Positions 6,182 to 21,318 of a stretch of 39,852 nucleotides of DNA are shown in pieces. The translations under genes were made by a program, and so were the position numbers. How positions within the stretch are numbered: the first letter of the stretch is position 1; each line of letters begins with the position of its first letter. The notes beneath the pieces were generated by a model that was given only the letters and a program-made list of their open reading frames with translations, made no database searches and had not been told where the DNA came from. Origin of the DNA: an uncultured Bacilli bacterium (GTDB lineage: Bacteria; Bacillota_I; Bacilli_A; RFN20; CAG-826); the NCBI GenBank assembly GCA_944363535.1, contig CALVUG010000008.1:1-39852 (forward strand). Direction: 5' to 3'.

Positions 6182-6323
6182 TATCCTTCACCTCACTTCC
6201 GACAATATTATATAAAAAGAAGAAGATTAAAGAAAGTCATTTTTTGACTTAGTCAAGATTTTTGCTAATTTTTAACGATAAATTTCGATTGTAAATAATC
6301 ACTAATTAGATACTTATAAATTA

Positions 6324-7613
6324 CTAAAATCTAACTTTAACATTAAAATCGATGTCTTTTTGTGTAATCTTAGTTTTGACGATGTCTCCGATATGAGCGT
6401 CCTTCACTCCGAGCATGATGTAATTATCGCTCATACCGTAATAGATGTCATTTTTATTGTCTTTTGATTCAATTAATATCTCTACTTCTTTTCCTAACAT
6501 CTTAGAAAGAATATTTTCTCTTAATGATTTTTCGACATCTAATAAAGCATGCACTCTTTCTTTCTTCTTTTCTTTACTTACGTCATCTTTTAAAAATTTT
6601 TGCGCGTACGTGCCATTTCTTTCTGAATATGGAAAGACATGAACTTTAAAAAAGTTCACTTCCTTAATAAAATTTAACGTCTCGATAAATTCTTCATCGC
6701 TTTCGCTTGGAAAACCGACGATGATATCCGTAGCAAAACTTACGTCACTTACTTCTTCTTTTACTTTCTTTACACGTTTTAAAAACGCTTCTTTATCGTA
6801 ATGACGACGCATCAATTTTAAGATGCGGTCACATCCACTTTGCAAAGATAAATGAAGGTAACGACATAGACGGCGATCATTTTTAAGTAAGGCGATAAAT
6901 TCATCGCTTAAAGTCGATAATTCGACGCTAGATAGACGAAGTCTATATAAATTAGGGTAAGTAACAAGTATGTCTTTTAATAAGGACACTAAGTCACCTA
7001 ATTCATCTAGATACGCTACTGTATCGATGCCGGTGAGAACTATTTCTTTGATGCCATGATTTAATAATTCGCCAATTTCTAAGATGATATCTTCTCTTTT
7101 TCTTATGCGCATCCTGCCGCGCACGTATGGGATGATGCAATACGTACAAAACTTATCGCAGCCATCGCTAGATTTGACGTAAGCCCTGACGTGGCCTTTA
7201 AATGAAGCGATATGGCCTAATTCTTCGTACGTTCGACTAGTTTTATCATTTAACACTAATCTTGGCTCTAAGGGTGTGTTTTGAGCGATTTTAAGCACTT
7301 CTTTACGCCCTCTTGTGCCGATCGCCGCACTTAAAAATGGTAACTTAGTGAAAATTTCTTCTTTTAAATCTTCGACGATGCAACCCATCGCTACGCATTT
7401 TGCCTCCGGATTAAGCTTATGCAATGAACGTAAAGTTTTTAAAGACTTATTTTTCGCTACTTCGGTGACATCGCACGTATTGACGATGATAAGTTTAGCC
7501 TCTTTTACATATTCTACTACTTTATGTCCTAACTTTAAAAATGAGGCTTTGAGAGCCTCTACTTCGTAGTCGTTAACTTTGCAGCCTAGAAAACTAAGAT
7601 AGACTTCCATCAT
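6324..7613 (-). CDS. mtaB: MtaB, tRNA t6A37 methylthiotransferase
   Basis: A 429-residue radical-SAM methylthiotransferase. The N-terminal UPF0004 domain holds Cys11 (GCKVN), Cys47 (NTCD) and Cys78 (MGCIVE) for one [4Fe-4S] cluster; the radical-SAM CxxxCxxC is Cys152/156/159 (CDKFCTYC); a TRAM-like domain ends the chain. MtaB converts t6A to ms2t6A at position 37 of ANN-decoding tRNAs. The SD AAAGGG precedes ATG at 7613; a second ATG follows at once (7610). The first overlaps the TGA of the upstream gene by four bases, indicating coupling. Confidence 0.93.
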   Translation of the reverse strand: MMEVYLSFLGCKVNDYEVEALKASFLKLGHKVVEYVKEAKLIIVNTCDVTEVAKNKSLKTLRSLHKLNPEAKCVAMGCIVEDLKEEIFTKLPFLSAAIGTRGRKEVLKIAQNTPLEPRLVLNDKTSRTYEELGHIASFKGHVRAYVKSSDGCDKFCTYCIIPYVRGRMRIRKREDIILEIGELLNHGIKEIVLTGIDTVAYLDELGDLVSLLKDILVTYPNLYRLRLSSVELSTLSDEFIALLKNDRRLCRYLHLSLQSGCDRILKLMRRHYDKEAFLKRVKKVKEEVSDVSFATDIIVGFPSESDEEFIETLNFIKEVNFFKVHVFPYSERNGTYAQKFLKDDVSKEKKKERVHALLDVEKSLRENILSKMLGKEVEILIESKDNKNDIYYGMSDNYIMLGVKDAHIGDIVKTKITQKDIDFNVKVRF

Positions 7614-13712: not shown

Positions 13713-14474
13713 CTACACTACTTGTGCGACTTTTCTTGATAAATCTTCGTTAAATTTGCGGTTGAAAGCGTAATAGATGCCATAGATCGCTGGCATCCCT
13801 AAATTCGTTTCAAGACAAGAATTGACTAATAAAGTTCTAATCGATTCTTCGTTCATCGGTCGAATGCCATTGATGAGCAAGGAAAATTCCCAGCTAAATT
13901 GGACGAAGAAACCGATGAGAAACAAAGTGATGACGTTAACGAAAGGTTTCTTCGCTCTTAAAAGTAAGAAAATTAAGATGAGATAAGATACGACTAAGAA
14001 GATGCCCATGATACCGTGATATTTACCGGTCGTACGATACGTTTCGATCGTCGCTTCGCCTCCAAGTTCGGCGATGGAAGGAGCGATGAGCCACCAGCTA
14101 ATGATCATAAGAATCCAGTATTTTGCGTATTTATCTTTGGCAATTAAAACCCAGATGAAAGCAAAATTAGTGATGCCATAGCTCATAGACATCCAAAGTA
14201 AAACTAAGAAAGTATTTAATGGACCTTGTTCTACTCCATCGATACTTACCGTTCTTGAACCAGCCCAAAGGTAAAAGCCACAGTAATCGACGATCGTATA
14301 TAAGACGCCACCAAAAAGAGCAAAAATTAAAGTCGCATATCTTTTCTTCCAGATGAGGAAGGCAAGAAAGATAGCAAGAAAGATACAATCGATGATGATG
14401 TAAAGAATATTAAAATTGCGCGTTGGGGTGATACCGTTCATCGCCTCATTTAATACTCTTATTGTTACATCCAT
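13713..14474 (-). CDS. Unknown polytopic membrane protein
   Basis: The 253-residue protein has about seven hydrophobic helices (near 24-42, 47-68, 85-106, 118-135, 150-172, 177-200 and a weaker one near 226-240), many Trp and Tyr residues and a short cytoplasmic-looking tail. I do not recognise a family and see no catalytic motif. SD GAGGAAAG precedes ATG at 14474; a TATAAA box lies nearby upstream, so it may be transcribed on its own after hemW. It has its own terminator. Confidence 0.75.
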   Translation of the reverse strand: MDVTIRVLNEAMNGITPTRNFNILYIIIDCIFLAIFLAFLIWKKRYATLIFALFGGVLYTIVDYCGFYLWAGSRTVSIDGVEQGPLNTFLVLLWMSMSYGITNFAFIWVLIAKDKYAKYWILMIISWWLIAPSIAELGGEATIETYRTTGKYHGIMGIFLVVSYLILIFLLLRAKKPFVNVITLFLIGFFVQFSWEFSLLINGIRPMNEESIRTLLVNSCLETNLGMPAIYGIYYAFNRKFNEDLSRKVAQVV

Positions 14475-14513: not shown

Positions 14514-15620
14514 TTAAAGCAAATCTTTTAAGATTAAATCGAGAAGTAAAGAACCTTCATAAGTCGTCATGATAGTGTTCCCTTCTTTTATTAATAACTT
14601 CGTATTTAGATAATGATTTATAACTTTTTCATATTTTTCCTTAGTGGTTTCACTTACATCTTCATAAATATCTTTAATTGATAAACCTTCTTTTAATCTT
14701 AATCCGAGCATGAATTTATAAAATAATTTATCTTCATCGGATATTTTTTCTTTCTTTTCTTCGCACGTGATACCTTTTAAATATTTGCTGATATTTTCCG
14801 TATTCTGATAGCGACATTCATTAACGTAAGAGGCCGCCCCTGCCCCGATACCGTAATAACTTAAATTTCTCCAATAGACTAGATTATGTTTCGAAGCAAA
14901 ATGCGGTTTAGAAAAATTTGATGTTTCGTAACGAACGTAACCGTGTTTAGTTAAAGATTCATAAATGTAATCGAACATCGTCCTTAAACTATCTTCATCA
15001 GTCTCTTCGACTTTTTTAGCGAAAAGTTCCGAACGATCTTCGATACTTAAAGCGTAAGTCGAAATATGTTCGACGTCTAATGATAAGATTTTTGTGACAT
15101 CAGACTTTAAAACGTTCATATCTTGTTTAGGATAACCGTAGATTAAATCGACGTTGATATTAGCAAAGCCCAAAGACCTCGCAAGAGCGATAGTCTCTCT
15201 AACTTTCAATTCATCGTGATGACGGTGCATATCTTTCAAGATAAATTCATCGAATGATTCGACGCCAAAAGATAAGCGATTGACCCCGTAACGAGAATAA
15301 AGTTCGAGTTTTGAAGAATCTATTGAATCAAAATTACATTCGACGCTAAATTCGTAATCTTCATCCTTTTTAATAGCCTCTAATTTCTTCAATAATGGTT
15401 CGATTAAATAAATTGGCAAACAAGAAGGCGTACCTCCGCCGATATAAATAGTTTTTAAATATTTAATATTTAAGTTATCTAATTCTTCCACTAATTTAGC
15501 CATGTAAGAAGAGGCTAATTTTTCCACGTAAAAACAATGCAAAAATGAGCAATAAGAACAAATATCTAAACAGAAAGGAATATGAATATATAAGGAAGTT
15601 ACTTCCTCATTTCTTCTCAT
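14514..15620 (-). CDS. hemW: HemW-like radical SAM protein (coproporphyrinogen III oxidase-related)
   Basis: With the ATG at 15620 the protein has 368 residues. YIHIPFC, then Cys17/Cys21/Cys24 (CLDICSYC) bind the radical-SAM [4Fe-4S] cluster; YIGGGTPS, SFGVESFD and IYGYPKQ follow, and a HemW C-terminal domain ends the chain. HemW is thought to insert haem into respiratory proteins and is not the haem-pathway oxidase. The open frame extends to 15671, but that would run deeper into the upstream gene; even this start overlaps it by 14 bases. No good SD is visible for any candidate, so the exact start is uncertain. Third gene of the unit with the small membrane protein and Fic-like gene. Confidence 0.88.
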   Translation of the reverse strand: MRRNEEVTSLYIHIPFCLDICSYCSFLHCFYVEKLASSYMAKLVEELDNLNIKYLKTIYIGGGTPSCLPIYLIEPLLKKLEAIKKDEDYEFSVECNFDSIDSSKLELYSRYGVNRLSFGVESFDEFILKDMHRHHDELKVRETIALARSLGFANINVDLIYGYPKQDMNVLKSDVTKILSLDVEHISTYALSIEDRSELFAKKVEETDEDSLRTMFDYIYESLTKHGYVRYETSNFSKPHFASKHNLVYWRNLSYYGIGAGAASYVNECRYQNTENISKYLKGITCEEKKEKISDEDKLFYKFMLGLRLKEGLSIKDIYEDVSETTKEKYEKVINHYLNTKLLIKEGNTIMTTYEGSLLLDLILKDLL

Positions 15621-15879
15621 TTTGCGCTTGTTTTTCTTCATAATCCTTGATGGCTTCAAGCGTCTTTTCATCTTCGATCGGCTCTAAGATGCGGCTTAAT
15701 TCATCTTCGGCAATCTTTTCTTCGTCGAGGCGCTTTTCAATTTTAGGCGCGCGGTTACGAAGGAAGAAATGATAGAATAAGTAAGCGATGAGCCCGATGA
15801 CGATAGCGCCGAGCAAGATAAAACAGATGATGACACCAGGATTATCGTACCAATCGAGAGTTAATATAGCATTTAACAT
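15607..15879 (-). CDS. Small single-pass membrane protein, unknown
   Basis: A 90-residue protein: short outside N-terminus, one strong membrane helix (about 15-39), then a charged, Glu/Lys-rich helical cytoplasmic tail. SD GAGGAAAA precedes the ATG. It starts 18 bases after the Fic-like gene and overlaps hemW, so it is part of that operon. It is reminiscent of small membrane anchor or scaffold proteins; no family recognised. Confidence 0.75.
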   Translation of the reverse strand: MLNAILTLDWYDNPGVIICFILLGAIVIGLIAYLFYHFFLRNRAPKIEKRLDEEKIAEDELSRILEPIEDEKTLEAIKDYEEKQAQNEKK

Positions 15880-15897
15880 AAATTATTTTCCTCATTT

Positions 15898-17340
15898 CTA
15901 ACGTTTTTTAGGCGTGTAGATATATTTATTTTTTATCTTTTGTTTTTCGTAGTACCCTTCGCTCACGAGCGTATCCATGGAAGTTCTTGCTGTTTCATAA
16001 GCACAGCCGAGAGTCTTTTTATATTGAGCGATGGTATAAAATTTACCAAGCGTGCAATGTCTTGCATAGAAATAAGCTTCCCCTCTTTTTAAACGTGGAT
16101 TAGATTCGAGGAGATGTTCTTCTAACTTTTGAGCGTCTTTTTCATCTAAGCCTAAGGCTAAAGAAGAAAGGTTGATCGCTTGATGCGTAGAACCTTCATA
16201 TTGTTTAATTTCTTCTTTTTTCGTCTCTACTATTACTTCTTTTGGTTTAACTAATTCGACGCTTTCTTCTTTAGAAGGAGCGACTTCTTGTTCAAAATCG
16301 AATAAGGAAGTAGGTTCCGTTTGGACGATCGGTTTAGAAGGAACTTCTTCTAATCTTTCTTTTTTCACTTCGTTTAAAGTCGTTTCGACGTAAAGCTTAT
16401 TTAATTCATCTAAATTAGTCTCGATTTTCTTTAAAGCGTAAAGTAAGAAATAGGTGACGTCCCCGCTTTTTTGCACTTCTTTTAATAGAGCATCTAACCT
16501 ATCATTTCTTACGAATAAATCGACGATATTTAAACTGAAGGCCGATTCATCTAGATCAGAAGAGGCAAAGATGGATAAAGCAAGTAAGATAGCCATCTCT
16601 TCATTAAAATCATCGAATGGCTTAGCGTAATATATGTAATAGGCAAAAACGATTGCTTTAAGTAAGGAAGGTAATGCGGAAGATTTAATAAAATTAAGTA
16701 ATACACCCATCGATTTTTCAAGTAATCTAGCTGGCATATAATCGTAGATACGATTCACTAAGACGCTAGAGGAAGAAGTTTTTGGATCGTAATAGCGATA
16801 TAGATGAGTTAACTCATCGTTCCCACTTATCGAAGAATATAATTTTGCTAAATAATCTTCATCGATTGGGCTTAGATAAGAATTTTTGACGAGTTTTAAG
16901 GTCTCATTAAATCTCGCTAAGCGCATATGTCTTTCATAAGTCGGGACAGGATGAGGCGAAAGTAATTTGATGATAGTATCATCATCGATGTCGATACCTT
17001 TCACTTCAGCGTATCTTTTTAAAATGTCAAAATCGAGTTTATCACCAAGATAAAAATAAGATGAAAAACGCAAATGCTTATTTTTATTATATTGCATCAT
17101 ATTTTTCGATAGTTTACGTTCGATTTGATTGACTTGATTTTGTACGAGCCCGCACATCGTCAAATATAAACTTTTTTGTTCAGCATCATATAAGGCGAGT
17201 GGGCGCATAAAATTTTCCCGATAATCTAAAATATCATTCCAAAAATTGTCCACGAGTGAGAGCCGTAATTCACGCTTCACATCTTCTTTGGTGGCATACA
17301 TTTCTTCGCTAAATCTTAAGACGAGACGTTTATCAGCCAT
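15898..17340 (-). CDS. Degenerate Fic-fold protein with C-terminal winged helix
   Basis: A 480-residue protein. Residues about 130-270 follow the Fic layout: YERHMRLARFNETL, then LSPIDEDYLAKLYSSISG (as in the element before the Fic core), an LYR segment, then AIVFAYYIYYAKPFDDFNEEMAILLALSIF. The last aligns with the Fic loop HPFxxGNGRxxR but reads KPFDDFNEEMAI (240-251): catalytic His is Lys240, the first Gly is Phe and the Arg is gone. AMP transfer should be lost while the fold remains. Residues about 320-400 are a low-complexity linker and 425-480 look like a winged helix (YTIAQYKKTLGCAYETARTS). I infer a regulatory or DNA-binding role. SD GGAGGG. First gene of the unit ending in hemW. Confidence 0.65.
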   Translation of the reverse strand: MADKRLVLRFSEEMYATKEDVKRELRLSLVDNFWNDILDYRENFMRPLALYDAEQKSLYLTMCGLVQNQVNQIERKLSKNMMQYNKNKHLRFSSYFYLGDKLDFDILKRYAEVKGIDIDDDTIIKLLSPHPVPTYERHMRLARFNETLKLVKNSYLSPIDEDYLAKLYSSISGNDELTHLYRYYDPKTSSSSVLVNRIYDYMPARLLEKSMGVLLNFIKSSALPSLLKAIVFAYYIYYAKPFDDFNEEMAILLALSIFASSDLDESAFSLNIVDLFVRNDRLDALLKEVQKSGDVTYFLLYALKKIETNLDELNKLYVETTLNEVKKERLEEVPSKPIVQTEPTSLFDFEQEVAPSKEESVELVKPKEVIVETKKEEIKQYEGSTHQAINLSSLALGLDEKDAQKLEEHLLESNPRLKRGEAYFYARHCTLGKFYTIAQYKKTLGCAYETARTSMDTLVSEGYYEKQKIKNKYIYTPKKR

Positions 17341-17382
17341 AACTAAATCCCTCCACTTATTGTTAGTATATACTTTTTTAAA

Positions 17383-17404
17383 AGTATTTTAAATACTAAT
17401 TAGT
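17383..17404. repeat. AT-rich inverted repeats between lgt and the Fic-like gene
   Basis: AGTATTT-T-AAATACT (17383-17397) overlaps ACTAATTAGT (17395-17404). They lie after the lgt stop and upstream of a TATACT box for the Fic-like gene. They may be a weak terminator or an operator. Confidence 0.45.
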
Positions 17405-17423
17405 AGATTTTTAGTAATATTTC

Positions 17424-18197
17424 TCATTTGTCGGCAATAGGACTTTTCTTCTTTTTAAAATAAGTATAAATAAGATATGCACACGTGCCTAAAAAGACGA
17501 AGATAGCAACCCATTGGGAAGGTGAAAGTAAAATGCTAACGCCTCGATCATCCCCGCGATAAAATTCGATGATAAATCTCGCTATCGCATATAAGATTAA
17601 ATAAGCGACGAATGGTCTTTTCTTAAATAAAGTAAGGCACAAAACTAAGATTGCAAGTAATGAGGCCATCTCATAAATTTGCGTGGCGTAAACTTTCGTG
17701 CCTGGGCCATATAACGCTGATGCTGGAGCGTCGCTAGGAAAGACGACCCCAGCCAAGCTATCGGTCGGTTTGCCAAAACAACATCCCGCTGCAAAGCAAC
17801 CTAATCTTCCTAACGCGTGAGCGAATACGATGAAGGGCGTAAGAATATTTAAATATGTTAAAGTATCTAACTTCGGATGGACTTTTTTGAAGATAAACAT
17901 GAGTAAGATAAAGAAGCCAAAGGCACATAAAAAGCCACCGTAAAAAGCAGTCGAAACGAAGTAAAGTCCCCTTCTTTCTTCGATCTTTAATAAACCATCG
18001 AATAAATAACCACCAAGATAACCGACGATCAAAGATAAAGATAAGAAGATGGTGACGAGCATCGTCTCTTCAAAATTCACTTTCTTTACAAATTTTACGA
18101 CGAGAAAAAATCCTAATAAAAGAATCGTAACACCCATACCTACGAGGAAGGAAAAAGTAGAAATTTTAAATAGACCGAAATCTAAAGTTGGAAACAT
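17424..18197 (-). CDS. lgt: Prolipoprotein diacylglyceryl transferase (Lgt), variant signature
   Basis: The 257-residue protein has about seven membrane helices. The Lgt signature region reads HALGRLGCFAAGCCFGKPTD (127-146): His127 and Arg131 are kept, but the usual GNFxNxE is GCFAAGC, as in a diverged branch of the family. YATQIYE (170-176) and RFIIEFYRGDDRG match Lgt. It attaches diacylglycerol to the lipobox cysteine of prelipoproteins. The frame is open to a TTG at 18215, but MFPTLDFGLF at 18197 is the usual Lgt opening. No SD is visible; TAAAAT lies seven bases before this ATG, suggesting a leaderless mRNA. Three lipoprotein genes in this window are likely substrates. Confidence 0.85.
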   Translation of the reverse strand: MFPTLDFGLFKISTFSFLVGMGVTILLLGFFLVVKFVKKVNFEETMLVTIFLSLSLIVGYLGGYLFDGLLKIEERRGLYFVSTAFYGGFLCAFGFFILLMFIFKKVHPKLDTLTYLNILTPFIVFAHALGRLGCFAAGCCFGKPTDSLAGVVFPSDAPASALYGPGTKVYATQIYEMASLLAILVLCLTLFKKRPFVAYLILYAIARFIIEFYRGDDRGVSILLSPSQWVAIFVFLGTCAYLIYTYFKKKKSPIADK

Positions 18198-18223
18198 ACG
18201 TCTTATTTTAACCAATTAAAAAA

Positions 18224-18253
18224 AGAAAAAATAGACCGAAGTCTACTTTTTCT
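18224..18253 (-). terminator. Terminator with TTCG tetraloop after the lipoprotein operon
   Basis: Minus strand AGAAAAAGTAGAC, TTCG, GTCTATTTTTTCT, then more T. The C(TTCG)G loop is a very stable tetraloop. Confidence 0.9.
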
Positions 18254-18284
18254 AACGAAAGGAGATTCGACAAATACGAAACAA

Positions 18285-19178
18285 CTAGATGTCGAATAAC
18301 GTTTTTTCTGGTCTGACGTAAGGGTGGAATTTTTCGAATAAGGTAAGACCAATTTGCGAAGCGATAGCAAGAGAAATAGTAACGCTTATTCCGATCGCAA
18401 TTGGACTTGCAAAACTATAAGCCATTGAGGAAGTAAATAAATTACCAGAAGCTACAGCTTGCGTAATATCTTGTCCTCCACCTTGGACGAATAATTCCCA
18501 GGTCATCGAAGAAGCGATCACTTGGAACACTAATAAGACGACGCTAGAAAGTTGTAAAATAAATTTAGTTAATTTATTTTTAATAAATAATATGCCCCAA
18601 ATTAAACCTAAAGTAAGAAGCATGAAAACGAAACTTGTAATGCCTAAAGCGCTAGGAGCATTACCTTGCGTCCCAAAGATGATATCAAAATAAGAGATTT
18701 TATAGAAATCCGAGACGTAAGTAATGCCTAGATTTGTCACATAAATTTCTTGCATGTCGACGACAGGCAAAATCATGAAACCTAAGACGCCTAAAATAAG
18801 AGCACTAGTGATACCAGTTGCGACGATGTCGCGTCTATGTTCACTTCTAATTAATATGATGATGCTACCAAGCGTAGCAAAGACGCCACCGACGAGGATA
18901 AGATAGACGACTAAGCCATAACTTGTTTGGCCAAAGCCAAAGAGAGCAAAATACCAAATGCTACAAGTTAAAGCGATAATTCCACCGATAAAAGGACGTT
19001 TAAAGCTTAATGCCGCCCCAACAATTAAAGCGATGGAAACAAGTAAACCATAAAGCCAATCGGTCAAGCCGATGTAACTTTCAAGATTTCGCGGTGCACA
19101 CATGAGCCAAGTTAAAGAACCAAGTAAGCCAAGATATGCTCCAATAAAAACAATTGCAATACCTAATTTTTTTGACAT
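18285..19178 (-). CDS. Unknown polytopic membrane protein of the lipoprotein operon
   Basis: With ATG at 19178 (SD AGGAGG, seven to eight bases away) the protein is 297 residues; the open frame reaches 19211 but that would run into the upstream gene. About eight hydrophobic helices (near 5-27, 38-57, 61-80, 88-108, 120-140, 181-203, 208-230, 257-285), with a larger extracellular loop around 141-178. No family recognised and no catalytic motif. It starts two bases after the stop of the 290-residue lipoprotein gene, so the proteins are probably made together and may form one envelope complex. Confidence 0.8.
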   Translation of the reverse strand: MSKKLGIAIVFIGAYLGLLGSLTWLMCAPRNLESYIGLTDWLYGLLVSIALIVGAALSFKRPFIGGIIALTCSIWYFALFGFGQTSYGLVVYLILVGGVFATLGSIIILIRSEHRRDIVATGITSALILGVLGFMILPVVDMQEIYVTNLGITYVSDFYKISYFDIIFGTQGNAPSALGITSFVFMLLTLGLIWGILFIKNKLTKFILQLSSVVLLVFQVIASSMTWELFVQGGGQDITQAVASGNLFTSSMAYSFASPIAIGISVTISLAIASQIGLTLFEKFHPYVRPEKTLFDI

Positions 19179-19180
19179 CT

Positions 19181-20053
19181 TTAATTGCCTCCTGTGACAG
19201 GTTCGTTCCAAACGTTAAGCGTAATTGAACCTTGCCAAGCACTACTGCTAGTAGTAACGCGGATAACGGTCGCTAAATTACCTTCGACTTTGCGCCATTC
19301 ATCGACGATATTTAAGCATACACCAGCCGAACTATAAGATGGTGTACGCGTATGAGCAAATTCTGGATAAGATTCCATAAATGTTACATAATCTTCAATC
19401 ATCGCCGTATGCGAGCCATCGAGAATATAAATCCCATAAATTCCAAGTATGACGGTACGTCTACCTGATTCGTTTACACCACGTTGGTAGTTATAAAGTG
19501 TCCCGCGGTTATAAGAAGGGATATCACTACCTACCCAATGATCGAAAATATCGAAGGTTTCTTCACCTGTAAACGGGTTAACTTCGCCAGGGAAAACACG
19601 GCTCACGACAGAATTAAGTTTTTCAAAAAGAATATTGATATTGTCGCCGTCAAGCGTTGCTTGAATATTGATTGCTTGAGCAGTTAAATTGTAACCATTA
19701 TTGATATAAGCCATGTTTTCGATCCTATCATCAATTCGCCAAGTAACAGAAGTTACATCGCGATAAGATTGTACGAAAGCATCAAAATCAGAACTATCCA
19801 CATCGTAAATAGTCACTAGTAAAGATTCAGTCGGAGGTTCACGATCAAGTTCAGCTTGGCTAATAACTTTTTGGTAAGAATAAGATGAACCACCTGTGAA
19901 ATCTGGAATGTTTGTGGCGGGTAAAGAAAGTTCGCGCACAATTAAATCGACAGGGTATTCTTCAACGAAGATAACTTTGTTATCGCCATCATTTGGAATA
20001 CCGCATCCACTAACAAGAATAGCTAGAGCTAATAAAGGAATCATTTTTTTCAT
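19181..20053 (-). CDS. Lipoprotein of unknown function (290 aa)
   Basis: Signal peptide MKKMIPLLALAILVSGC with lipidated Cys17. The mature part has no recognised domain; it appears to be alpha/beta with several Tyr/Asp-rich segments and an internal repeat-like pattern of LLVTIYDVDSSDFDAFVQSY (about 79-98) and VILGIYGIYILDG with MIEDYVTFMESYPEF (about 200-232), which could be two copies of one small fold. Start overlaps the stop of the 421-residue lipoprotein (TAATG). Middle gene of the three-gene operon. Confidence 0.8.
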   Translation of the reverse strand: MKKMIPLLALAILVSGCGIPNDGDNKVIFVEEYPVDLIVRELSLPATNIPDFTGGSSYSYQKVISQAELDREPPTESLLVTIYDVDSSDFDAFVQSYRDVTSVTWRIDDRIENMAYINNGYNLTAQAINIQATLDGDNINILFEKLNSVVSRVFPGEVNPFTGEETFDIFDHWVGSDIPSYNRGTLYNYQRGVNESGRRTVILGIYGIYILDGSHTAMIEDYVTFMESYPEFAHTRTPSYSSAGVCLNIVDEWRKVEGNLATVIRVTTSSSAWQGSITLNVWNEPVTGGN

Positions 20054-21318
20054 TAGTTTGTTCCTCCTTCTTCTTCAACTTCTTGATTTGGATAATCATC
20101 GAACGGATTATCGACGTTAGTCCATGTGTCATCGATCGTAGGAACACTAAGTTCATCCGCGGTTACATCTTCATAAGAAATGATATATTCACGAATAGAT
20201 TCTAAAGAAGAATTAGTTGAACGAACACGAACGATACCGTAAACAAAATCATTTTCGACAAATTGCATAGCATAATAAACATCATTCCAAGAATATGTGA
20301 TGTATAAGCTACCTTCACCATTCGTATAGAAATTATAATCGACATAAGCTTTATTCGTCGGATTACGATCTATTTGCGTCTGAATATTATTCAATTGCGT
20401 TAAAGCATCATTTCCAGTCGGGAAGCCAAGAGTAGATTGAGCATTAGACCAATAAGTATTTGAATTAGCCGTTACTGCTATTGTACCTGTATCACTTGGC
20501 ACGACGTTGATAGTATAAGTATCATCTGCGTGGACGTTAAAAGTAATATTATATAAACCGGCTGCATTGACAGAAATATCACCATCATCAAGTTTTGACA
20601 TGTCACCTTCAAAAGCAGAACCGCTTGCGATAGAAGCACCCCACATATTTTCGCCAGTTGCATCGCTAATTTGCCATTGGTCGTAGGCTGTAAATCTTAC
20701 GCCGACAATCGTATAAGCACTAACGACGTTAGGATCTTCACTCGTCACTGCTTCTAATGGATAACCACCGATTGGATGCCATTTTTGTGGACCGCTAAAA
20801 GAACCACCGCCAACAAGATAATAATTTGCACCAAGACTAGGTTTATCAGTATCGGTGAATTGTTTGAATGTCGTCGTTTCGGCATTAGCAGCATCGGGGG
20901 TAACATCGGTCAAATTCGTCGTATAATAAACATCGTTTTCGCCGATGAAAAATGCACGACTTTCGTCGATAAGATAGCTAGTAGTCGAGCCATTGTAAGT
21001 TGATGAACTAGTGCCTTCTAAATGGTAAACGACACGACCAAGTGTGTTAGAAAAATAGGCTTTACCAGTAGCGTTTGCATTATAGTTAATAGCGTCAGAT
21101 TGGCCAGAAAGTGTTAAAGAGATATCGATTTTTGCACTGTCGTGAACGCGATAGTCAGAACTCGCTTGAGCTTTGATGATTTCTCTGGCGACGTCTTTTG
21201 CTTCGTCTAAAGAAATCTTTTCACCGATATCGCCAACAGGGTGAAAATTACCTGATGGAGAGCAACCTACAACACCTAAAAGCAAAGGCGTTATAGCTAA
21301 CAAGATTTTTTTCTTCAT
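20053..21318 (-). CDS. Lipoprotein with a carbohydrate-binding-like beta-sandwich (421 aa)
   Basis: Lipobox VVGC with Cys19. Residues about 30-150 form a beta-rich region; about 166-273 (YYLVGGGSFSGPQKW, GVRFTAYDQWQISDATG, GLYNITFNVHADDTYTI) resemble the starch-binding/SusE-type beta-sandwich found in glycan-binding proteins. The C-terminal part (about 280-405) repeats the small TQIDRNP-type alpha/beta layout, and the tail is acidic (DDYPNQEVEEEGG). First gene of the operon with the 290-residue lipoprotein and the polytopic membrane protein. Glycan binding is inference from pattern only. Confidence 0.75.
   Translation of the reverse strand: MKKKILLAITPLLLGVVGCSPSGNFHPVGDIGEKISLDEAKDVAREIIKAQASSDYRVHDSAKIDISLTLSGQSDAINYNANATGKAYFSNTLGRVVYHLEGTSSSTYNGSTTSYLIDESRAFFIGENDVYYTTNLTDVTPDAANAETTTFKQFTDTDKPSLGANYYLVGGGSFSGPQKWHPIGGYPLEAVTSEDPNVVSAYTIVGVRFTAYDQWQISDATGENMWGASIASGSAFEGDMSKLDDGDISVNAAGLYNITFNVHADDTYTINVVPSDTGTIAVTANSNTYWSNAQSTLGFPTGNDALTQLNNIQTQIDRNPTNKAYVDYNFYTNGEGSLYITYSWNDVYYAMQFVENDFVYGIVRVRSTNSSLESIREYIISYEDVTADELSVPTIDDTWTNVDNPFDDYPNQEVEEEGGTN

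Follow-up and report, generated by a model that had tools for sequence, protein, structure and literature searches.

A dead Fic-fold protein with two winged helices as a probable binder of TTAGTA arrays at the replication terminus of uncultured Bacilli

Overview

A stretch of 39,852 nucleotides from an uncultured Bacilli bacterium, referred to here as the window, encodes a protein in which a Fic fold with a dead catalytic motif is combined with DNA-binding-type domains. PFW is the name used here for this family of pseudo-Fic, two-winged-helix proteins. In genomes that carry it, arrays of the hexamer TTAGTA lie upstream of its gene, in the replication terminus region and beside dif, the site across from the replication origin at which chromosomes finally separate. 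PFW probably binds these arrays clustered around dif, as judged from sequence comparison. Taken as a whole, the best explanation is that PFW acts at the replication terminus by recognising a specific DNA sequence, is built on an inactive Fic scaffold and serves an organising or tethering role, and this reading is considered fairly probable. Computation establishes the fold, the dead motif, the arrays with their position at the terminus and dif, and their co-occurrence with PFW, whereas PFW as binder, the scaffold function of the Fic domain and the organising or tethering role are inferred.

The compared genomes are metagenome-assembled genomes of uncultured Bacilli, 0.8-2 Mb in size and including Candidatus Onthovivens merdipullorum. 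They carry anonymous family (f1, f2...) and genus (g1, g2...) labels, and the genome of the window is G000, of family f1. The features of the window on which the argument draws are the following.

15898..17340, minus strand: PFW gene, 480 aa, pseudo-Fic plus two winged helices (open reading frame, relatives, AlphaFold2 model, dN/dS)
17152..17340, minus strand: N-terminal winged-helix-like domain, residues 1-63 (AlphaFold2 secondary structure H-H-H-E-E, pLDDT 85-97)
16345..17151, minus strand: Fic-fold helical core, residues 64-332 (Foldseek PDB and family-profile matches)
16591..16623, minus strand: degenerate Fic loop KPFDDFNEEMA, residues 240-250, replacing HPFxxGNGR (sequence and column counts in 62 homologues)
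16156..16344, minus strand: linker, residues 333-395, disordered and fast-evolving (pLDDT <50 at 348-395; dN/dS 0.21-0.38)
15901..16155, minus strand: C-terminal winged helix, residues 400-480, the most conserved part (AlphaFold2 model, invariant columns, dN/dS 0.010-0.016)
15607..15879, minus strand: 90-aa one-helix membrane protein with a conserved acidic cytoplasmic tail, directly downstream of PFW
14514..15671, minus strand: hemW, radical SAM heme chaperone (TIGR00539, 273.7 bits against a cut-off of 205.4), a neighbour with no part in the proposed mechanism
17394..17416, plus strand: candidate PFW site, TACTAA + TTAGTAGATTTTTAGTA, upstream of PFW, with three units, two of them in an 11-bp direct repeat

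Domain architecture and fold

The first-pass annotation of this DNA had recognised a Fic core that leads through a long linker to a C-terminal winged helix, and structure prediction bears out this layout. The AlphaFold2 model of the window's PFW reaches a pLDDT of 86 and a pTM of 0.68, and when it is searched against the PDB with Foldseek, the best 50 matches are all Fic proteins (8cil at E 3e-7), which rules out a non-Fic fold. The window sequence alone matches Pfam Fic (E 0.081, residues 199-255) and the PDB entry 8cil weakly. Pfam Fic is matched by 20 of 62 PFW homologues, with a best E of 8.7e-8, and a search with the family profile reaches Fic proteins of the ordinary kind, aligned over residues ~77-323, at E values as low as 1e-16. 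By structure and by Pfam, PFW belongs to the Fic fold.

The C-terminal winged helix is seen in the AlphaFold2 model as helices at 400-413, 419-427, 437-444 and 448-460 followed by strands at 464-469 and 472-477, and weak matches to Penicillinase_R (Pfam) in 7 of the 62 homologues agree with this fold. This domain, which includes the recognition helix YETARTSMDxL, is nearly invariant in the homologue alignment. The N-terminus, an addition to the earlier layout, also appears to be winged-helix-like from predicted secondary structure, with helices at 2-13, 18-25 and 31-44 and strands at 45-51 and 57-61. A PHROGs search with PFW returned unknown families only, with weak E values, and Rfam has no match within 15400-18300 of the window.

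Loss of the catalytic loop under purifying selection

The loop that replaces HPFxxGNGR had been read as the loss of the catalytic His, Gly and Arg, and the same loss is found in all homologues examined. In the catalytic-His column, the 62 homologues have K (47), R (12), Q (2) or V (1), and His in 0/62. The first loop Gly is replaced by Y, F, H, L, N or S (mostly Y/F), the second mostly by E/D and the loop Arg mostly by E, leaving Pro-Phe as the sole well-kept part of the motif. HPFxxGNGR is also gone in the distant homologues of f2, f5 and f7, so that a survey of loop conservation yields no homologue with the motif of an active Fic enzyme among those examined. PFW is present in 83/95 related genomes, normally in one copy each, and its dN/dS within the genus is 0.046-0.073, falling to 0.010-0.016 in the C-terminal winged helix. 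This strong purifying selection (0.05-0.07) shows that the gene is no decaying pseudogene and, together with its distribution, rules out a lone mutant. The earlier idea that the scaffold was kept while the enzyme was lost is thus in agreement with a dead loop throughout the family.

A separate intact Fic protein is encoded in the same genome (L031, G000:C10:34473-34802) and carries HPFNDGNGRMSR, providing a within-genome contrast to the dead-loop PFW. This protein bears on the proposal that PFW is still an enzyme, with a re-evolved active site in which Lys stands for His and with DNA binding as a form of regulation, as in CbFic2. The proposal draws on the best structural match, CbFic2 (8cil), which is a dimeric Fic enzyme that binds DNA (PMC10628234), but it is highly improbable, since the His, Gly-Asn-Gly and Arg positions show no consistent alternative beyond Pro-Phe, the genome also encodes the intact Fic protein, and orthologues in f25 keep the winged helix while the core is nearly lost. 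The Fic domain of PFW would serve as a scaffold.

The f25 orthologues, from the same class, are lepA-linked proteins of ~300 aa (L244-L249) with a strongly shortened Fic core, which retain the N-terminal domain and a winged helix with a similar recognition helix. Genomes of f25 contain no TTAGTA arrays, and none beside dif, which weighs against the main explanation. Most of these loci share a TTTTGTCGAAA-like sequence upstream of the orthologue; as an f25 counterpart of TTAGTA, TTTTGTCGAAA was rejected, with at most 6 copies per genome, not above control and unclustered. A receiver-like gene of ~220-240 aa lies downstream of the orthologue in 5/6 of the f25 loci, in the place of the small membrane protein.

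TTAGTA arrays upstream of PFW and across the genome

DNA binding had been regarded as the likely function of PFW, and its two DNA-binding-type domains, with repeats just upstream of the gene, are consistent with this. The AT-rich inverted repeat at 17383-17404 had been suggested as the target; relevant repeats do lie upstream of PFW, but the meaningful element is the TTAGTA array (17394-17416), into which the end of the inverted repeat extends. TTAGTA/TACTAA is enriched 26-fold in the 120 bp upstream of PFW homologues, where its density reaches 13.5 per kb, compared with 0.52 per kb in the rest of the loci. The units precede PFW in nearly all relatives, with a typical spacing of exactly 11 bp, and the promoter array, which recurs across genera, sits just upstream of the -35 region.

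The exact pattern TTAGTAN5TTAGTA occurs five times in the genome of the window: once in the PFW promoter, three times on contig C14 and once on C17. The 83 genomes with PFW have 374 sites, compared with 108 for the reversed sequence as control; in the 12 genomes lacking a PFW match, the counts are 13 and 20, respectively. Counts of one-mismatch patterns are by themselves not enriched over control, because most such matches arise by chance; the signal resides in exact or multi-unit arrays. One such one-mismatch copy lies in the window at 6311-6327, in an intergenic gap beyond the dnaK operon. In G053, arrays are present and a PFW match is absent, the genome being 86% complete, so that this is possibly an assembly gap. 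The divergent PFW of G064 has an altered recognition helix, and this genome has neither an exact site nor an upstream array.

Arrays outside the promoter are mostly intergenic and lie partly at orthologous positions across genera. An array precedes dxs in the window's genome, G014 and G043, and in the window's genome and G043 further arrays lie between aspS and tkt and beside plsY. The arrays before dxs (L048, C14:17597-17640 of the window's genome) and dnaG (L049, C17:18700-18731) abut the start codon, and no Shine-Dalgarno sequence is visible at these two starts. A regulon of an OmpR-type response regulator, considered for the 11-bp repeats, was dropped since the sites are clustered at the terminus.

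Arrays beside dif

A first dif search used the Bacillus-type dif consensus and was run independently of the arrays. In three genomes, G014, G043 and that of the window, its best match and an array are about 125-165 bp apart, within an intergenic region that adjoins nadD and separates convergent genes. In the window's genome the coordinates, outside the window itself, are C14:25494-25520 for dif and C14:25349-25365 for the array. A dif pattern derived for the lineage has a single match in each of 81/95 genomes, with 0 in the control. In 44/48 genomes with PFW (f1, f3 and f5 included) and in 0/9 without it (Fisher 8e-8), an array sits no more than 200 bp from dif on what we take, by comparison with E. 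coli dif, to be the XerD-arm side; the nine genomes without PFW come from few families (f4, f6, f8 and one f5) and are not fully independent. The four PFW-carrying genomes with no clear array beside dif are G017, G019, G031 and G049. The spacing is nearly fixed at ~95-118 bp from the dif end, and in f1 the array keeps a nearly constant offset and strand in 27/28 genomes.

The DNA between dif and array is unconserved, with the exception of a TTWTCCACA box, which is found in 32/48 genomes with PFW and 0/9 without. It lies about 40-110 bp from the dif end on the XerD side, mostly at 74-97 bp. This box by dif, present in the window's genome and 31 others, resembles a DnaA box. Array density is highest within 300 bp of dif, and in genus g53 of f5 and in G089 the sites pack both sides of dif over about 0.5 kb. 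The dense arrays of L289 (G089:C7:24500-24992) and L290-L294 (f5) consist partly of palindromic TTAGTACTAA units and have a centromere-like look.

This geometry might instead reflect a dedicated accessory of XerCD/dif dimer resolution for which the array next to dif suffices, with a secondary role for the remaining sites. The nearly fixed spacing and strand, the density peak and the intervening box all speak for such a role, which is compatible with the main explanation; as an account in its own right it is nonetheless unlikely, given well-formed arrays up to 40 kb away, partly at conserved orthologous positions.

The association of the arrays with PFW also weighs on whether another protein binds them, PFW being merely a controlled gene or one located in the region. 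Arrays at many genes besides PFW (dxs, tkt, dnaG), the f25 orthologues with a similar winged helix and no arrays, and the arrays of G053 would fit another binder. However, the dif-side arrays track PFW, the PFW-promoter array recurs across genera, the protein has two DNA-binding-type domains of which the C-terminal one is nearly invariant, and both kinds of site are missing where the recognition helix is altered, in G064, making another binder rather improbable. That PFW itself binds the arrays is the most economical reading, argued from three of the observations above: the array before its own gene in nearly all relatives, its paired DNA-binding-type domains and the co-occurrence of dif arrays with PFW.

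Clustering of arrays at the replication terminus

The candidate sites are confined to the terminus region, at dif or the GC-skew switch and opposite dnaA, in the manner of MatP sites, in G014, G043, G022 and G305, and PFW would be their binder. In G014, dnaA is at 713 kb and the GC skew changes sign at 180-190 kb; ten arrays, each of 2-5 units, fall within 142-220 kb, and two more are found in 180 kb sampled elsewhere. All seven exact sites of G043 lie on a 156-kb contig with a skew switch at 80 kb, and its 860-kb contig with dnaA carries none. The complete genome G305 contains a single exact site, at 719,353, which is next to dif and where the GC skew switches. In G022, where dif is at 298.5 kb, three arrays surround it at 289-308 kb. 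The distance between dif and the PFW gene itself is about 34-37 kb for G014 and G043 and about 42 kb for G305 and G022; by synteny, it should be roughly 40 kb in the window's genome.

The first-pass annotation favoured a sensor or transcription factor, a suggestion that is not supported in this form: the sites are arrays centred on dif and the terminus, including convergent intergenic ones, and no scattered regulon. An ordinary autoregulated transcription factor whose regulon lies near the terminus by chance would account for the array upstream of the PFW -35 region and for those immediately upstream of the dxs, tkt and dnaG starts. It is quite unlikely, because the dif-side arrays lie between convergent genes, with no promoter and at a fixed distance, the f5 g53 genomes keep sites almost solely around dif, and the targets have position in common, not pathway. 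Autoregulation is probably one of several roles of PFW as a terminus-binding protein.

Terminus location is also a property of polar replication-fork traps such as Tus/ter and RTP/ter. A winged helix is found in RTP as in PFW. As with tus (PMC10331603), one of the sites belongs to the PFW gene itself. Oriented barriers must be mirrored about dif (PMC6549158), whereas the arrays occur in both orientations within 10 kb, with 15 plus and 18 minus on the XerC side and 3 plus and 23 minus on the XerD side. PFW has no match to a terminator family in Pfam at E<=1. A polar trap, being very unlikely, was dismissed since the array orientations do not mirror.

Neighbouring genes and the membrane protein

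PFW had been placed in an operon with hemW; hemW does lie downstream, with the 90-aa reading frame between them, while a functional link to PFW is not evident. The small membrane protein had been named as a possible partner. Its standing as a conserved neighbour is upheld, as a homologous small transmembrane reading frame lies 2-24 bp 3' of PFW in about 80/80 related loci, a count made with a permissive filter and including one locus (L114) that looks wrong-framed. Its conserved tail reads L.R.L.pveDe. It is present in f2 and f7, and missing in several f5 genomes and in f25. Several f5 genomes have dif arrays without this protein, so a membrane link could not be universal. The protein is a plausible anchor for PFW, and its conservation is suggestive of the terminus being held at the division site; it may add an anchor that is not essential to terminus marking.

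Upstream, a membrane protein, two lipoprotein-like reading frames and lgt lie between lepA and PFW in the window (18285-21318), and lepA lies directly upstream of PFW in most relatives outside the window's genus. A 253-aa multi-helix membrane protein between hemW and hrcA (13713-14474) has no Pfam or NCBIfam match at E<=1.

Comparison with known systems

In uncultured gut Bacilli, PFW appears to fill the place that MatP holds in E. coli without being related to it; it would work like MatP or Caulobacter ZapT but belongs to neither family. As with MatP and the matS sites of the E. coli Ter macrodomain, the sites are non-polar and confined to the terminus, and the proposed role of the small membrane protein resembles that of ZapB, the partner that connects MatP to the division site. 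MatP is, however, a small ribbon-helix-helix protein and matS a 13-mer, whereas PFW combines Fic with two winged helices and its candidate sites are TTAGTA arrays right beside dif at a set distance. The MatP family has no match to the window's PFW among Pfam families at E<=1, and reports of MatP and ZapB are limited to enteric bacteria (PMC7188993). In Caulobacter crescentus, ZapT carries the annotation of a transcription regulator, yet its site of action is the terminus, which it connects to the Z-ring (PMC7188993). The proposed pairing of PFW with the membrane protein would parallel that of ZapT with ZauP. ZapT belongs to the MerR family and has no clear DNA motif and sites mostly inside reading frames, in contrast to the Fic and winged-helix architecture of PFW and its sharp, mostly intergenic candidate motif.

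The best structural matches, CbFic2 of Coxiella burnetii (8cil) and Shewanella SO_4266 (3eqx/3zcn), share the Fic core and C-terminal winged helix. They are class II Fic enzymes, whereas the PFW homologues all lack HPFxxGNGR, and PFW has in addition an N-terminal winged helix, as predicted, and a long linker. Tus/ter and RTP/ter share with PFW the terminus location and a site in the gene's own promoter; they differ in that the PFW candidate sites lack strict polarity, and a sequence relation was not found in Pfam.

Proposed mechanism and significance

In the proposed mechanism, the Fic domain would have lost its AMP-transferase chemistry and been kept as a folded, probably dimerising scaffold for the two winged helices. 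These would bind TTAGTA arrays of 2-5 units spaced by 11 bp, one helical turn. Such arrays occur next to dif, on its XerD-arm side, in other intergenic regions within roughly +/-40 kb of the terminus, and in the PFW promoter, where binding would allow autoregulation. By drawing these sites together, PFW would give the terminus region its organisation and hold dif within reach or in place for the last step of segregation and for Xer recombination. In most of the lineage, the one-helix membrane protein transcribed with PFW would tether this complex to the membrane or the site of division. In CbFic2, DNA is contacted by the winged helix and induces dimerisation (PMC10628234), so a plausible origin for PFW is an active DNA-binding Fic enzyme that lost its chemistry and kept the DNA-bound dimer.

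A wider and more tentative proposal, which may well not hold, is that this uncultured Bacilli lineage as a whole marks its terminus by dead-Fic PFW on phased TTAGTA arrays spaced from dif, together with the DnaA-box-like element, and links it to the membrane through the small protein encoded on the same transcript, which would sit in what was once the Fic cleft. Literature searches turned up no previous account of arrays of this kind or of a dead Fic protein at dif. If lineage-wide marking of this kind is true, it would be a third, unrelated coupling of terminus and division, and the first in Gram-positive relatives. The conserved protein, the sharp motif and the nearly fixed dif geometry in genomes of 0.8-2 Mb make the question testable. 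The TTAGTA arrays together with dif provide a sequence marker for locating the terminus in fragmented metagenome assemblies, and PFW would represent an enzyme fold turned into a scaffold of chromosome architecture across a whole order.
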